Assembly: GCF_000015865.1 (NCBI RefSeq) | Contig: NC_009012.1 | Coordinates: 2,845,081 to 2,909,080 of the forward strand | DNA: 64,000 nucleotides | From: Acetivibrio thermocellus ATCC 27405 | GTDB taxonomy: Bacteria > Bacillota > Clostridia > Acetivibrionales > Acetivibrionaceae | Direction: 5' to 3' | Part shown: in pieces, positions 11,030-16,103 of the stretch | Position numbering within the stretch: the first letter of the stretch is position 1 | Layout: each line of letters opens with the position of its first letter | Notes under the pieces: model-generated | What the model was told of the DNA's origin: nothing | The model's database searches: none | What the model saw: the letters and a program-made list of their open reading frames with translations, nothing else | Translations under genes and position numbers: made by a program

Positions 11030-11608
11030 ATGGGCAAGGTTGTTGAAATCAGATGGCACGGGCGCGGCGGACAAGGTGCCAAGACTGCGTCGCTTCTGCT
11101 GGCTGATGCTGCATTCAATACCGGAAAATACATCCAGGGTTTTCCGGAATACGGTCCTGAAAGAATGGGCGCGCCAATTACAGCTTACAACAGGATAAGT
11201 GATGAGAAACTTACCATTCACAGCAATATTTATGAACCGGATTATGTTGTGGTTGTAGATGACACTCTTTTGACATCCGTTGATGTTACAGCAGGTTTGA
11301 AAGAGGATGGAGCTATTATCGTCAACACTCCAAAAACTCCTGACGAAATAAGACCTCTTTTAAAAGGCTACAAGGGAAAGGTTTGCACGATTGACGCAAG
11401 AAAAATTTCCATTGAAACTTTGGGAAAATACTTCCCGAACACCCCAATGCTTGGTGCAGTTGTAAAGGTTAGCAAGATAATGGACGAAGAAGAATTCCTC
11501 AAGGATATGGTTGAGTCATTCAAGCACAAGTTTGCGAACAAGCCTGAAGTTGTTGAAGGCAATATCAAGGCCCTGGAGAGGTCAATGCAGGAGGTGAAAG
11601 GATTATGA
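11030..11608 (+). CDS. porG: Pyruvate:ferredoxin oxidoreductase, gamma subunit
   Basis: First gene of the four-subunit POR operon. The 192-residue product has the gamma-type signature RWHGRGGQGAKTAS and FPEYGPERMGAPI. The gamma subunit helps assemble the CoA-binding region of the heterotetramer that converts pyruvate, CoA and oxidised ferredoxin to acetyl-CoA, CO2 and reduced ferredoxin in the cytoplasm. It starts 8 nt after AAGGAGG. Its stop overlaps the porD start as ATGA, so translation is probably coupled. Another 2-oxoacid is possible as substrate, but order and sequence fit POR. Confidence 0.93.
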   Translation: MGKVVEIRWHGRGGQGAKTASLLLADAAFNTGKYIQGFPEYGPERMGAPITAYNRISDEKLTIHSNIYEPDYVVVVDDTLLTSVDVTAGLKEDGAIIVNTPKTPDEIRPLLKGYKGKVCTIDARKISIETLGKYFPNTPMLGAVVKVSKIMDEEEFLKDMVESFKHKFANKPEVVEGNIKALERSMQEVKGL

Positions 11609-11910
11609 GTAAAGAATTGAGAGATGTAAAACCTGATGTTACCTGGAAAGAGATAACATCCGGTGGAGTGATAGATTCCCCTGGAAACGCACATCTTTTT
11701 AAGACCGGTGACTGGCGTTCTATGAAGCCGGTGTGGAATGAGGAGAAATGCAAGCAGTGTTTGCTTTGCAACCCGGTATGTCCTGATTCATCCATAATGG
11801 TAAGTGAAGAGGGAAAAATGACAGGTATCGATTATGATCACTGCAAAGGATGTGGCATTTGTTCAAAGGTTTGTCCTTTCAAAGCCATAGACTTTGTAGA
11901 GGAAGTATAA
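11605..11910 (+). CDS. porD: Pyruvate:ferredoxin oxidoreductase, delta (ferredoxin-like) subunit
   Basis: A 101-residue 2[4Fe-4S] ferredoxin-like subunit. The two cluster motifs are CKQCLLCNPVCPD and CKGCGICSKVCPF. It passes electrons from the thiamine diphosphate site to free ferredoxin. An N-terminal extension of about 45 residues packs on the other subunits in this family. It overlaps porG by 4 bp and precedes porA by 16 bp. Confidence 0.95.
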   Translation: MSKELRDVKPDVTWKEITSGGVIDSPGNAHLFKTGDWRSMKPVWNEEKCKQCLLCNPVCPDSSIMVSEEGKMTGIDYDHCKGCGICSKVCPFKAIDFVEEV

Positions 11911-11926
11911 GAGAGGGGGACACAAA

Positions 11927-13111
11927 ATGGGAATAAGAGAAAGGCTTAGCGGTAATGAGGCAACGGCGATTGCCATGAGACAAATAAATCCTGATGTGGT
12001 TGCTGCTTTTCCGATAACACCGTCAACGGAAATTCCTCAATATTTCTCGTCATATGTCGCTGACGGACTTGTAGATACGGAATTTGTTGCTGTGGAATCA
12101 GAGCACAGTGCAATGTCTGCATGTATAGGTGCTCAGGCTGCAGGTGCAAGAGCAATGACTGCCACATCCGCAAACGGTTTGGCATATATGTGGGAGGCTT
12201 TGTATATAGCGGCAAGTATGAGACTTCCGATTGTATTGGCGGCTGTAAACAGAGCACTTTCAGGTCCTATCAATATCCACAACGACCACAGCGATACAAT
12301 GGGAGCTAGGGATTCGGGATGGATCCAGTTATACAGTGAAAACAACCAGGAGGCTTATGACAACATGCTTATGGCTCACAGGATAGGTGAGCATCCTGAT
12401 GTAATGCTTCCTGTCATGGTCTGCCAGGACGGATTTATTACTTCTCACGCAATAGAAAATATTGAACTGGTGGAAGATGAGAAAGTTAAGGCTTTTGTAG
12501 GAGAATACAAACCGACTCATTATCTTCTCGACAGGGAAAATCCGATTTCTGTGGGTCCTTTGGATTTGCAGATGCATTATTTCGAGCACAAGAGACAGCA
12601 GGCACAGGCAATGGAAAACGCCAAAAAGGTAATTCTTGAAGTGGCGGAAGAATTCTACAAGCTTACGGGAAGAAAATACGGATTTTTTGAAGAATACAAA
12701 ACCGATGATGCCGATGTTGCCATTGTTGTTATGAACTCCACTGCCGGTACTGTAAAATATGTTATCGACGAGTACAGGGCAAAAGGCAAAAAAGTTGGTT
12801 TGATAAAACCTAGAGTATTCAGACCTTTCCCTGTTGATGAACTGGCACAGGCTTTGTCAAAGTTTAAGGCAGTGGCCGTTATGGACAAGGCTGACAGCTT
12901 CAATGCAGCCGGAGGACCTTTGTTTACAGAGGTAACAAGTGCACTCTTCACAAAAGGAGTATTTGGTCCTAAGGTTATTAACTATAAGTTTGGATTGGGT
13001 GGAAGAGACGTTAAAGTTGATGATATTGAAGTTGTTTGTGAGAAGCTTCTGGAAATTGCAAGTACAGGCAAGGTAGACTCAGTATACAATTACCTTGGTG
13101 TTAGAGAGTAG
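11927..13111 (+). CDS. porA: Pyruvate:ferredoxin oxidoreductase, alpha subunit
   Basis: A 394-residue subunit carrying the pyrimidine-binding part of the thiamine diphosphate site. The N-terminal domain has the AFPITPSTEIPQ motif and EFVAVESEHSAMSA; the C-terminal part is a transketolase-C-like domain with GLIKPRVFRPFP. It pairs with PorB to make the active site. The ribosome site GAGGGGG precedes ATG 11927. The order G-D-A-B is the archaeal/thermophile type, unlike the single-chain PFOR of many clostridia. Confidence 0.95.
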   Translation: MGIRERLSGNEATAIAMRQINPDVVAAFPITPSTEIPQYFSSYVADGLVDTEFVAVESEHSAMSACIGAQAAGARAMTATSANGLAYMWEALYIAASMRLPIVLAAVNRALSGPINIHNDHSDTMGARDSGWIQLYSENNQEAYDNMLMAHRIGEHPDVMLPVMVCQDGFITSHAIENIELVEDEKVKAFVGEYKPTHYLLDRENPISVGPLDLQMHYFEHKRQQAQAMENAKKVILEVAEEFYKLTGRKYGFFEEYKTDDADVAIVVMNSTAGTVKYVIDEYRAKGKKVGLIKPRVFRPFPVDELAQALSKFKAVAVMDKADSFNAAGGPLFTEVTSALFTKGVFGPKVINYKFGLGGRDVKVDDIEVVCEKLLEIASTGKVDSVYNYLGVRE

Positions 13112-13123
13112 GAGGTGTGGTAA

Positions 13124-14059
13124 ATGGCTTATAATTTGAAAGAAGTTGCAAAAAAACCGGAAAGACTTACGGGCGGACACAGAATGTGTGCAGGCTGCGG
13201 AGCTCCGATAGTTGTAAGACAGGTTCTTAAGGCATTAAAACCGGAAGATCATGCGGTTATCTCAGCTGCAACAGGTTGTTTGGAAGTTTCAACTTTCATT
13301 TACCCTTATACAGCATGGAAGGATTCTTTCATTCACAGTGCGTTTGAAAATACCGGTGCTACAATTTCCGGTGCGGAAGCGGCTTATAAAGTATTGAAGA
13401 AAAAAGGAAAAATTGAAGGGGAGACCAAGTTTATTGCGTTCGGTGGTGACGGCGGAACATACGACATAGGACTTCAGGCACTCTCAGGAGCGATGGAAAG
13501 AGGACACGACATGGTTTATGTGTGCTACGACAATGGAGCATACATGAACACAGGTATCCAGAGGTCTTCTGCCACTCCGAAATACGCTGATACCACAACT
13601 TCACCTGTTGGAAAGAAGATACCCGGTAAAATGCAGCCAAGAAAAGACCTGACAGAAGTATTGGTAAATCATCGCATACCTTATGTTGCTCAAACCGCTC
13701 CTTTCGGGAACATGAAGGACCTCTATGAAAAAGCTGAAAAAGCTATTTATACACCCGGTCCTGCGTTCCTGAACGTGTTGGCACCGTGCCCGAGAGGATG
13801 GAGATACAACACTCCTGATTTGATGGAATTGAGCAAATTGGCGGTTGAAACTTGCTTCTGGCCGCTTTATGAAGTAATTGACGGCAAATATATAATAAAC
13901 TACAAGCCGAAGGAAAAAGTTCCCGTCAAGGAATTCTTGAAACTTCAGGGAAGATTTAAACATCTTTTCAAAGCCGGCAACGAATATATGCTGGAAGAAA
14001 TTCAGAAAGAAGTCGACTTAAGATGGGAGAGACTCTTGAAGCTGGCCGGAGAGGCTTAA
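13124..14059 (+). CDS. porB: Pyruvate:ferredoxin oxidoreductase, beta subunit
   Basis: A 311-residue subunit that binds thiamine diphosphate and a [4Fe-4S] cluster. The N-terminus has MCAGCGAPIVVRQ (CxxC) and a later cluster Cys is at ATGCLEVS. The diphosphate/Mg motif is GGDGGTYDIGLQAL through YDNGAYMNTG, and LAPCPRGW gives the last cluster Cys. It starts 12 bp after porA with GGAGG and ends the operon; a terminator follows. Confidence 0.95.
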   Translation: MAYNLKEVAKKPERLTGGHRMCAGCGAPIVVRQVLKALKPEDHAVISAATGCLEVSTFIYPYTAWKDSFIHSAFENTGATISGAEAAYKVLKKKGKIEGETKFIAFGGDGGTYDIGLQALSGAMERGHDMVYVCYDNGAYMNTGIQRSSATPKYADTTTSPVGKKIPGKMQPRKDLTEVLVNHRIPYVAQTAPFGNMKDLYEKAEKAIYTPGPAFLNVLAPCPRGWRYNTPDLMELSKLAVETCFWPLYEVIDGKYIINYKPKEKVPVKEFLKLQGRFKHLFKAGNEYMLEEIQKEVDLRWERLLKLAGEA

Positions 14060-14189: not shown

Positions 14190-14312
14190 TCATTTAAGAA
14201 GGACTTTCGGTACTTTGGGTTGGTATAAAAAGAAAAAACAGGCCGAACTTGCCGACAAAACGGCAAAAAGAGTGACGATAAAAGCCACCAAACCTAATGT
14301 TTTTTTTAACAT
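14190..14312 (-). CDS. AgrD-like cyclic autoinducer peptide precursor
   Basis: A 40-residue ORF below the usual length cut-off. It starts at ATG 14312 behind a strong GGGGGAG ribosome site and ends at TGA 14190-14192. Layout matches AgrD precursors: a short positive start (MLKKT), an amphipathic or hydrophobic leader (GLVAFIVTLFAVLSASSA), a single Cys in SACFFFLY, then a QPKVPKVLLK tail like the conserved P-x-x-P-K recognition tail of AgrD. In that family AgrB cleaves the tail and joins the Cys side chain to the new C-terminus as a thiolactone; the exported ring is read by an AgrC receptor. No agrB is visible in the window. It lies 142 bp downstream of a receptor-like membrane gene on the same strand. 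The assignment is by pattern; maturation is inferred. Confidence 0.72.
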   Translation of the reverse strand: MLKKTLGLVAFIVTLFAVLSASSACFFFLYQPKVPKVLLK

Positions 14313-14454
14313 GAAAAATTACTCCCCCTCTATCCAATTATTCATTTAAGATTATTGAAGCCGGTATTGCGGTCAGAATTATTGCAGAAGGAATGTGGTT
14401 CGTAGGATATAGGATAATATGGTTCATAGAATGATACAGTTTCGTGTAAACAAA

Positions 14455-15294
14455 TCAGTGTTCAATGATATGCGATTTTAAGCTTATTAGAGCGTTTTTG
14501 GCTTCATTGATTTTTTGTTCATCTATAAGTCTGTATATATATTCTATATTTTGCACTATTTCGTTATTATTCAGGGTATTTTTGTTTTTATAAAATTCAT
14601 GAATATTTTTTACAGCAAGGGTCAGAATTATAGTCACAAATAAAGAAATAAAAATATTTATTCTTAATAAATAGACATTTTGTGATGAAGTTATCGCGGT
14701 TTTTTCAAAAATCAGCATCCGGGTCATGAGAAAAGTAAGAAAACCAATGGTACACAGCGATATTAAATATACAATTAATTGAATATAATATACTTTTGTC
14801 CTAATATTTGCATTTTCCATATTTACTACCTTAAACTTGAATCGATAAAACAAAAATGCCAAAACTATTTGCAGTAACCTTGTACTCAATACAAATATCG
14901 CAAAATTTACAGCATTTTGGTAGAGTTCTTCTGCTCCGTTGATTCCAAGCAGCAGCGTGATAATAACTGAAAAAGGTATTTCCACAAGCATTATCAACGA
15001 GAAGCCCAGTACTGATGATGTTATGGCTTCATAAAAATTAAATCTCATAATGAATATCATTAGTATGATATCAGCAAATAATACTAATAATGGAGCTTCG
15101 GAAACAAGTCCAAGTTTTTCGCGGAGGATATAGCTGATTACAGTGACGAGTGAAGCCGTTGACAGTATTCTATAGTAATTGGAATGTATTTTAAAATAAT
15201 GGTATTTGCCGATTGACAAAGTTCCTAAAAAAATGAAAATCACCTGCTCTGAAAAACTCACTAAAATAAACTGCAGTAATGACATATTTTCCAT
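14455..15294 (-). CDS. AgrC-like membrane receptor without a kinase domain
   Basis: A 279-residue protein with six to seven hydrophobic helices over residues 8-235. A short cytoplasmic tail follows (KNIHEFYKNKN, then NNEIVQNIEYIYRLIDEQK and INEAKNALISLKSHI). The tail lines up with the Spo0B/AgrC dimerisation helix pair (typical form RHDFxNHLQxIYxLIxxGKxxEALxYI), but the phospho-acceptor His is Asn and no ATP-binding GHKL domain follows. AgrC proteins normally exceed 400 residues, so this is receptor-like but not an active kinase by itself. ATG 15294 follows AGGAG by 8-9 nt. It lies between an XRE regulator gene and the AgrD-like peptide gene, all on the minus strand. Confidence 0.6.
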   Translation of the reverse strand: MENMSLLQFILVSFSEQVIFIFLGTLSIGKYHYFKIHSNYYRILSTASLVTVISYILREKLGLVSEAPLLVLFADIILMIFIMRFNFYEAITSSVLGFSLIMLVEIPFSVIITLLLGINGAEELYQNAVNFAIFVLSTRLLQIVLAFLFYRFKFKVVNMENANIRTKVYYIQLIVYLISLCTIGFLTFLMTRMLIFEKTAITSSQNVYLLRINIFISLFVTIILTLAVKNIHEFYKNKNTLNNNEIVQNIEYIYRLIDEQKINEAKNALISLKSHIIEH

Positions 15295-15383
15295 ATATAA
15301 CACTCTCCTGACTTGTAATAAATTTACTAAACAATTAATGTCCAGTCAATTATTTCCTAAAATTTTTTATATTTCCAGAAAAT

Positions 15384-16103
15384 CTATTTTGCTTTTTTAA
15401 CCTCTTTTGCAATTGTATCTATCAGAAGCTTTAAAGTATCGGCGCTTATGTTTTTGCTTCGGGCTTCCATGGCTGCTTTTATGTATGGCATGTTTTCCTC
15501 GGAGGAAAGAAAGTTTTTAATGTCATCGTCAAGATTTAAAAACGTCTCAAAATTTTTGTCAAAGGTCTGAGAGGCGGCTTTCAAAATGGTTTCATTATAT
15601 TTTTCTCTCTCCTTGCGAAGGCTTTCCTCGGTATTGGGCACATACCAGAAATCAGGTGTTACCTGGGCATATTTCGAAAGAATGTTTATTGTACCCGGAA
15701 AAGGTTCAATGTCGCCGTCTATATAGCTTTTTATCTGGGAAGGCTTGATTTGATATCCTGTCTTTTGGTATATGTCGTCCGAGAATTCTTCGGCGGTCAT
15801 GTTACCCATAATAAGCAAAATATTTTTTACAAAAATATCATGGTCAAATTTTTTTTGAATTTGGACATCTTCACTTAAATATCCCGCTGCTTTCATGAGC
15901 TCTTCATAAGGGTAGTCATATGCCTTTGAAATCATTTTCAAAGTTTCAGGCTTTGGATTGGAATCCTTTCCTGTGCGGGGGTCCACACCCTTTTCAAGGA
16001 TACTTAAGTATGAGTAACTAATTCCCATCTTTTTAGCGGCCTGTCTTATGGACCATTTTTTACTTAATCTTATTTCTTTGAAGAGTTTGCCTAGATTACT
16101 CAT
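15384..16103 (-). CDS. XRE-family transcriptional regulator
   Basis: A 239-residue DNA-binding protein. Residues 5-70 are a Cro/C1-type helix-turn-helix (IRQAAKKMGISYSYLSILEKG with a longer loop, PRTGKDSNPKPETL). Residues 95-160 look like a second HTH or degenerate helical module (MTAEEFSDDIYQKTGYQIKPSQIKSYIDGD). The C-terminal 70 residues are helical. It is the first gene of a minus-strand set with the receptor-like and AgrD-like genes, 89 bp before the receptor start. It probably controls that cassette or responds to its signal; neither is proven. The start at ATG 16103 has a close GGTG. Confidence 0.8.
   Translation of the reverse strand: MSNLGKLFKEIRLSKKWSIRQAAKKMGISYSYLSILEKGVDPRTGKDSNPKPETLKMISKAYDYPYEELMKAAGYLSEDVQIQKKFDHDIFVKNILLIMGNMTAEEFSDDIYQKTGYQIKPSQIKSYIDGDIEPFPGTINILSKYAQVTPDFWYVPNTEESLRKEREKYNETILKAASQTFDKNFETFLNLDDDIKNFLSSEENMPYIKAAMEARSKNISADTLKLLIDTIAKEVKKAK

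Follow-up and report, generated by a model that had tools for sequence, protein, structure and literature searches.

Results

A three-gene cassette on the minus strand

The window analysed here is the whole stretch of 64,000 nucleotides at positions 2,845,081 to 2,909,080 of the single 3,843,301-base contig of Acetivibrio thermocellus ATCC 27405 (assembly GCF_000015865.1, contig NC_009012.1; C. thermocellum in the papers cited below). At 14190-16103 its minus strand carries an XRE-family regulator, a membrane protein (below, the receptor) and a 40-residue peptide open reading frame (ORF). An initial annotation had described these as three same-strand genes of a possible peptide-signalling cassette, the smallest preceded by a GGGGGAG site; all three minus-strand ORFs and the site are present and are listed with the other features of the locus in Table 1. 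A GTG at 15303 is also a possible start of the receptor. We regard the cassette as a real, conserved variant of Agr signalling whose anatomy is strongly supported and whose function we infer.

Table 1. Features of the cassette in window coordinates
Feature	Positions	Strand	Description
XRE-family regulator	15384..16103	-	239 aa; N-terminal HTH_3 and a helical C-terminal half without a Pfam family
Putative sigma-A-type promoter of receptor-agrD	15321..15349	-	TTGACT-17 nt-TAAATT; predicted from the sequence pattern
Kinase-less AgrC-like receptor	14455..15294	-	279 aa with seven transmembrane helices by prediction; matches AgrC-type kinases by profile
Receptor cytoplasmic helical tail, residues 239-279	14458..14580	-	Possible kinase DHp remnant; Asn at the phospho-His place
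agrD ribosome-binding site	14322..14328	-	GGGGGAG; 9 nt ahead of the ATG
AgrD-type cyclic-peptide precursor	14190..14312	-	40 aa, MLKKTLGLVAFIVTLFAVLSASSACFFFLYQPKVPKVLLK; TIGR04223 56.8 bits
Predicted five-residue ring C25-F-F-F-L29	14226..14240	-	Predicted from the aligned positions of the paralogue's published ring, S25-F29

The genome holds further Agr parts. Three AgrDs exceed the cut-off (that of the window and those at 2,571,655 and 1,593,781), and there are two receptors, the second of which (at 2,571,896) is 20% identical to the window receptor and is likewise followed by an AgrD. This second receptor-AgrD pair, which has no XRE and whose peptide is already known (below), is an addition to the earlier reading. 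Two AgrBs are encoded, at 2,812,695 and 1,593,116, both outside the window, and the gene order radical-SAM, AgrB, AgrD that is given in PMC3880215 is present at 1.59 Mb (here and below, statements attributed to papers by PMC number refer to excerpts of them). A search of the genome for LytTR, the AgrA output domain, gave a single match, at 3,014,360-3,014,632, with two TAA stops inside it; no intact LytTR match was found, and the window has no LytTR match at all. We observe, then, three AgrDs and two AgrBs in a genome that seems to be without an intact AgrA-type regulator.

The peptide is an AgrD-type precursor

The cyclic lactone autoinducer model TIGR04223 matches the window peptide with 56.8 bits, against a curated cut-off of 19, and an E value (E) of 1.6e-15, the query being a 39 aa reading whose range ended short of the stop, and a Pfam scan of the peptide gave no match. 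On this profile evidence we take the ORF to be a true AgrD precursor, as the initial annotation had supposed from its layout. The annotation had rested that layout in part on a single Cys and a C-terminal QPKVPK; among 23 loci of the host family the QPxxPK tail is indeed kept in 23 of 23, while the Cys is not strictly kept, the ring residue being Cys in 14 of 23 and Ser, its sole replacement, in the other 9. Ser is the other residue besides Cys that forms the ring in AgrD-type peptides.

A paralogue of this peptide has been characterised chemically. Verbeke 2017 (PMC5322536) described a C. thermocellum AgrD pentapeptide, Clo1313_2818, confirmed its five-residue ring by liquid chromatography-tandem mass spectrometry, and found growth to be slower with the synthetic peptide at 50 uM; in the excerpts the authors report having identified no AgrB, AgrC or AgrA candidates for it, and no receptor is named. 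If the second Met (MKNK...) is taken as the start, the peptide of the second host pair (L012) shows the A24|S25...F29, Y30 and P35 of that paper, and the computed [M+H]+ of cyclic S-F-F-I-F, 642.3286, compares with a monitored ion of 642.3292 there; in sequence and in calculated mass the host peptide fits the published pentapeptide. Clo1313_2818 is probably Cthe_3383, a link of names that we deduced; in a 2013 transcriptome (PMC3880215) Cthe_3383, which encodes 40 aa and lies beside sporulation genes, is one of the most strongly expressed genes. Cys25 and Leu29 of the window peptide stand at the positions of S25 and F29 of this paralogue, and the window ring is for that reason predicted to be C-F-F-F-L, with a computed [M+H]+ of 658.3058.

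Other AgrD-like ORFs vary at these positions. Locus L213 (3078-5474) has tandem receptor-AgrD pairs, one with a Cys and one with a Ser ring residue. Peptides at L227 (3177-3299) and L229 (3005-3142) have Thr-Trp at the ring position (SSVTW, STATW) and directly follow two ORFs that resemble, by eye, a response regulator and a kinase. At L214 (3159-3503) there are two short AgrD-like ORFs (CSGGLHQPKIPK and CTVGLHQPKIPK) with less hydrophobic leaders, near which neither a receptor nor an AgrB was found.

The membrane protein is related to AgrC-type sensor domains

The annotation's view of the membrane protein as a receptor without a kinase agrees with what the searches returned: it has no Pfam match above cut-off, no NCBIfam match and no Pfam kinase domain, and Asn replaces the phospho-His. 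Its AlphaFold model has seven long helices and a helical tail (predicted local distance difference test score, pLDDT, 75.4; predicted template modelling score, pTM, 0.65), the seventh helix extending past the membrane and being followed by a short final helix. Alignment of the receptor profile with AgrC-type kinases of the same order by hhalign gave a probability of 99.2% and a score of 146.9; in controls the maximum was 21.3 in 20 column shuffles (best probability 0.7%) and AgrB scored 18.3. Six kinases (L089, L106, L110, L112, L119 and L121) match the receptor profile with E between 1.4e-15 and 2.3e-9 in a 7-protein set, although they had been preselected by that same profile, are not an independent sample and were checked with Pfam in 2 of 6 cases. 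The host kinase that is linked to AgrB at 1.59 Mb matches at E 0.0034 in the 7-protein set and 0.29 in a 599-protein set. Could hydrophobic composition cause the kinase match? We rejected this explanation, since in the 599-protein control set (80 AgrBs among them) everything beyond the receptors and the six kinases had E of at least 0.027, and the hhalign probability stayed below 1% for alignments that were column-shuffled, reversed or taken from AgrB. By these profile comparisons the seven-helix protein, which has lost the kinase, is remotely related to AgrC-type sensor domains. Foldseek of the receptor model against the PDB found nothing significant (best E 1.2), and no PDB chain matched the receptor profile even at E<=1, so the receptor role is argued from sequence profiles. 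Its nearest named relatives are from Acetivibrio species.

Ten columns of the receptor are invariant among 14 sequences, five of them within the last 40 residues, which suggests a conserved contact there; Glu245 and Gln248 are invariant residues of this tail. The H-D of the kinase H-box is mostly N-E in type-1 and mostly R-E in type-2 receptors (types assigned by us from the tail sequences), and the tail by itself aligns best with the kinase DHp domain on the H-box, at a non-significant E of 0.04-0.07; it is possibly a remnant of that domain. At L204 (1480-2810) a gap of 23 bp separates a 152-aa receptor-like ORF from a downstream 282-aa ORF whose end resembles, by eye, a kinase ATPase domain; the two are possibly a split kinase.

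The same homology would be expected if the truncated receptor paired with a full histidine kinase elsewhere, as a decoy or sensor subunit, and the XRE were a separate autoregulator; truncated kinases can serve as partners. Against this, the receptor profile yields only the two kinase-less proteins in the host genome at E<=0.001, and its similarity to the AgrB-linked kinase at 1.59 Mb is no more than marginal. We consider such pairing distinctly unlikely.

The receptor-AgrD pair is conserved in the family and across the order

In the 14 genomes of the host family the receptor is found in 13 with the window protein as query and in 14 with the profile, and a same-strand AgrD-like ORF follows it in 23 of 23 homologues. 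These fall into two paralogous layouts: type 1, with XRE, receptor and AgrD on one strand and the XRE upstream (13/13 loci), and type 2, the receptor-AgrD pair without an XRE (10/10). The annotation had asked whether the three-gene order recurs in related species, and it does: 13 of the 14 family genomes have it, as do six loci from five other families of the order, and a seventh locus, from a sixth family, is truncated at a contig end. Window genes at 11030-14059 run convergently to the cassette and were read by eye as subunits of a pyruvate:ferredoxin oxidoreductase; a 311-aa gene of this group adjoins the cassette in 8 of 13 type-1 family loci, and a ninth locus is cut short.

The order-wide set comprises 58 genomes, with 68 matches to the receptor profile, 121 to AgrB and 149 to AgrD. 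Of the 68 receptor matches, 59 have a same-strand AgrD no more than 621 bp downstream. Among the remaining nine, six are frames of kinase length (456-481 aa), two are fragments or lie at contig ends, and one has an AgrD that only a custom profile detected. Counted from the AgrDs, a first survey placed 55 beside a receptor only, 57 beside an AgrB only, 4 beside both and 33 beside neither. Re-examination of 20 of these 33 (from 18 of 20 regions, the other 13 being left out) gave 14 with a receptor-like ORF, including two (L217 and L219) called by weak scores (E 0.022 and 0.056) plus place and size, and 6 without (two at L214, and one each at L224, L227, L229 and L230). At least 73 of the 149 AgrDs (59 + 14), or about half, thus adjoin a kinase-less receptor. 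Among 391 genomes drawn from the whole class, 25 had a match at E<=1e-5; 14 of them are from the host order, and several of the matches in the others are kinase-length frames. This count is low, as the search scored at most 6 candidates per genome and missed G016, which the order-wide profile found. Outside the order, L202 has XRE, AgrD and receptor together.

The XRE regulator

The regulator is of the XRE type, as annotated: Pfam HTH_3 matches above cut-off (E 4.2e-13) at the N-terminus only, and at E<=1 the Pfam scan adds N-terminal helix-turn-helix (HTH)-type families and NUMOD1 and gives no tetratricopeptide repeat (TPR). The HTH is the most conserved stretch in the family alignment. The structure model of the regulator (pLDDT 82.5, pTM 0.45) has a sole fold match at E<=0.001, RghR (5.6e-4), followed by the weaker HTH repressors DdrO, Stl and SinR; PlcR, PrgX and ComR appear at ranks 16, 29 and 46 with TM-scores below 0.3, and the fold search gave no identification of the C-terminal half. 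In the XRE-receptor gap, TTGACT and a -10-like hexamer 17 nt on are found in the window and in 4 loci of the same genus (5 of the 9 loci compared).

Of the 74 receptor-AgrD loci examined across the order, 43 have an XRE no more than 700 bp away. This count omits the second pair of L213 and includes one doubtful case (L226, 109 aa, 628 bp away, E 7e-6); the HTH model behind it was derived from 22 regulators, and as 21 of these are cassette-linked it favours regulators of that kind. By set the fractions are 19/19 for type 1, 0/18 for type 2, 15/22 and 9/14 for divergent receptors, and none for a contig-end fragment. As background, 169,453 bp of flank beyond 2.5 kb gave 1 XRE match, and in the 64-kb window the only match is the cassette's own. 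HTH_3 was found in 20 of 20 regulators checked by Pfam (18 beside cassettes in the order, 1 outside the order and 1 unlinked). The XRE is upstream on the same strand in type 1 and, in most others, convergent and right after agrD.

Is this neighbourhood merely historical, with XRE, receptor and AgrD side by side yet working in separate pathways? The lack of a linked XRE in all 18 type-2 cassettes would suit such a history. In many families, however, the XRE adjoins receptor-AgrD, and it does so in two or more ways, either upstream on the same strand or downstream and convergent. Plain inheritance of one order is insufficient to account for this, and we judge the historical explanation very improbable.

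The host has a second, unlinked XRE at L011 1285-1986 (456,545-457,246), with a different HTH. Its C-terminal half resembles that of the cassette XRE (37% identity over ~147 aa). All 18 genomes that have a type-2 receptor carry an XRE of this unlinked type, against 8 of the 40 that lack such a receptor; outside the host family the figures are 5 of 5 and 7 of 39. These comparisons treat related genomes as independent, so that their p values are a guide only. In one of the 26 genomes with an unlinked-type XRE (G051) that XRE is itself cassette-linked.

An AgrB encoded elsewhere

The annotation had no AgrB in view at the locus. The window indeed contains none; the host genome has two, however, and AgrB, rather than being absent from the system, most likely acts in trans from a gene linked to ribosomal RNA (rRNA), as the following sequence comparisons suggest. 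In a tree of 80 AgrBs (of the 121 matches, using matched stretches rather than whole ORFs, with one fragment dropped and a sister family, f3, represented by 12 of its 52 AgrBs) the orphan host AgrB at 2,812,695 falls in a 37-row clade with support 99/77. This clade includes four f3 AgrBs that adjoin receptor-AgrD, and the other host AgrB (1,593,116) is outside it. In f3 the genes run AgrB-receptor-AgrD; the distance to AgrB is no more than 400 bp in four loci and 1.1 kb in a fifth. AgrBs of the orphan-type clade occur in 31 of 32 cassette genomes versus 2 of 12 others, among the 44 of 58 genomes in the tree (14 being left out), and one of those two (G055) proved to have AgrB-receptor-AgrD and a convergent XRE. 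No AgrB was found in four cassette genomes (G003, G006, G007 and G050), all drafts of at least 250 contigs.

The orphan agrB (L013 6609-7262; 2,812,608-2,813,261) has the same orientation as a 16S-23S-5S rRNA operon and lies ~155 bp beyond it. A 5S or 23S rRNA is directly upstream of 14 of the 33 clade AgrBs scanned versus 0 of 7 non-clade ones, several others being cut by contig ends. The genes on the other side of the orphan agrB (L013 1593-7262) were read by eye as nadA, nadB and nadC, and the corresponding region of G040 (L212 258-3761), a genome in which no cassette was found, has nadA and nadB by eye.

Discussion

A proposed mechanism

We think it fairly probable that an Agr-type ring peptide is sensed here without a kinase, through an AgrB in trans, the receptor, and an XRE relay by protein contact. 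An AgrB from another place in the genome, most likely the rRNA-linked orphan, would cleave and cyclise AgrD to give the five-residue thiolactone C-F-F-F-L (calculated 658.31). The exported ring would bind the seven-helix receptor, a truncated AgrC-type sensor domain, and the resulting change would pass via the short cytoplasmic helical tail to the XRE by contact, through sequestration or release. The XRE would then control the receptor-agrD promoter and probably other genes too, and type-2 cassettes may use the unlinked XRE with the common C-terminal half. The different wiring of cyclic-peptide signalling that the annotation proposed is borne out in its parts, its conserved order and the lack of an intact LytTR; the signalling chain itself we infer. 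That this represents a widespread phosphorylation-free Agr branch, with rRNA-linked AgrB in trans, a kinase-less receptor and direct contact to an XRE in a two-protein membrane-to-DNA relay, we place just on the probable side.

Several observations weigh against this account. The DHp score of the tail alone (16.5) is not significant against a shuffled maximum of 16.3 in 50 shuffles, and at least three divergent receptors (L097, L102 and L109) are tail-less, ending just past the last membrane helix. In 31 of 74 receptor-AgrD loci there is no XRE within 700 bp, so an XRE cannot be the linked output everywhere, and the TTGACT promoter was not seen in the 4 loci compared from other genera. The second support value of the AgrB clade, 77, is below the usual 80; G040 has an orphan-type AgrB and no cassette was found in it, and G048 has a cassette without an orphan-type AgrB. 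A 13-pair terminator-like stem lies between the 5S rRNA and the orphan agrB, and co-transcription of that gene with the rRNA is for this reason not supported. The co-occurrence counts, for the AgrB clade as for the unlinked XRE, treat related genomes as independent.

The loci without a near XRE and the tail-less members, together with the slowing of growth by the synthetic paralogous peptide at 50 uM (Verbeke 2017, PMC5322536), would also suit a different role, in which the seven-helix protein is an export, processing or immunity partner of the peptide and the XRE has charge of a small unit for peptide production or of a bacteriocin-like kind. The homology of the seven-helix protein, however, is to AgrC-type sensor domains, with none detected to AgrB; neither of two alignments has among its invariant or nearly invariant columns the Cys or His that a protease would need; and AgrB genes are present elsewhere in the host genome. 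We therefore consider a partner of this kind unlikely and prefer the kinase-less receptor.

Comparison with known systems

No account of an AgrD-XRE-receptor unit was found in the open-access literature, as judged by titles and the starts of abstracts, and we provisionally regard the kinase-less Agr wiring as undescribed. The proposed control of an HTH repressor by protein contact is like that in SinR-SinI and Stl-dUTPase (SinR and Stl being weak fold matches of the XRE), and Mlc is a membrane-sequestered repressor; to our knowledge none of these three systems involves a ring peptide or a seven-helix receptor. The RRNPP regulators (PlcR, ComR, PrgX) are alike in that an XRE-type regulator answers a peptide. 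They bind imported linear peptides via TPR domains, whereas the XRE of the cassette has no TPR by Pfam and its peptide would be a ring sensed at the membrane.

Rearranging rings have been reported for other Agr-type peptides. Molloy 2021, as cited in PMC11297923, described autoinducing cyclopeptides of Ruminiclostridium cellulolyticum, clostridial Agr-type peptides with an S-to-N acyl shift, and according to PMC11297923 five-residue Listeria rings that lack an exocyclic tail are converted into homodetic peptides by rearrangement. By analogy with these tail-less rings, the active form of the window peptide may be short-lived.

The published Clo1313_2818 peptide and its type-2 locus (L012) share the receptor-AgrD layout with the window cassette, and differ from it in having a ring Ser (a lactone) rather than Cys and no linked XRE. 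For this growth-inhibiting peptide of C. thermocellum the present analysis supplies a candidate receptor, regulator and processing enzyme, and makes the signalling question directly testable in a laboratory strain that serves research on cellulosic biofuels.

In textbooks, Agr peptides are signals of two-component systems. With the canonical agr system (AgrBDCA of staphylococci and Listeria) the cassette shares an AgrD-type precursor, an AgrC-related seven-helix sensor and an AgrB gene in the genome; it differs in having no kinase and no LytTR regulator at the locus, an XRE instead, and its AgrB off-locus. If the proposed relay is correct, these differences would amount to a second, phosphorylation-free way of reading Agr-type signals across many clostridia.

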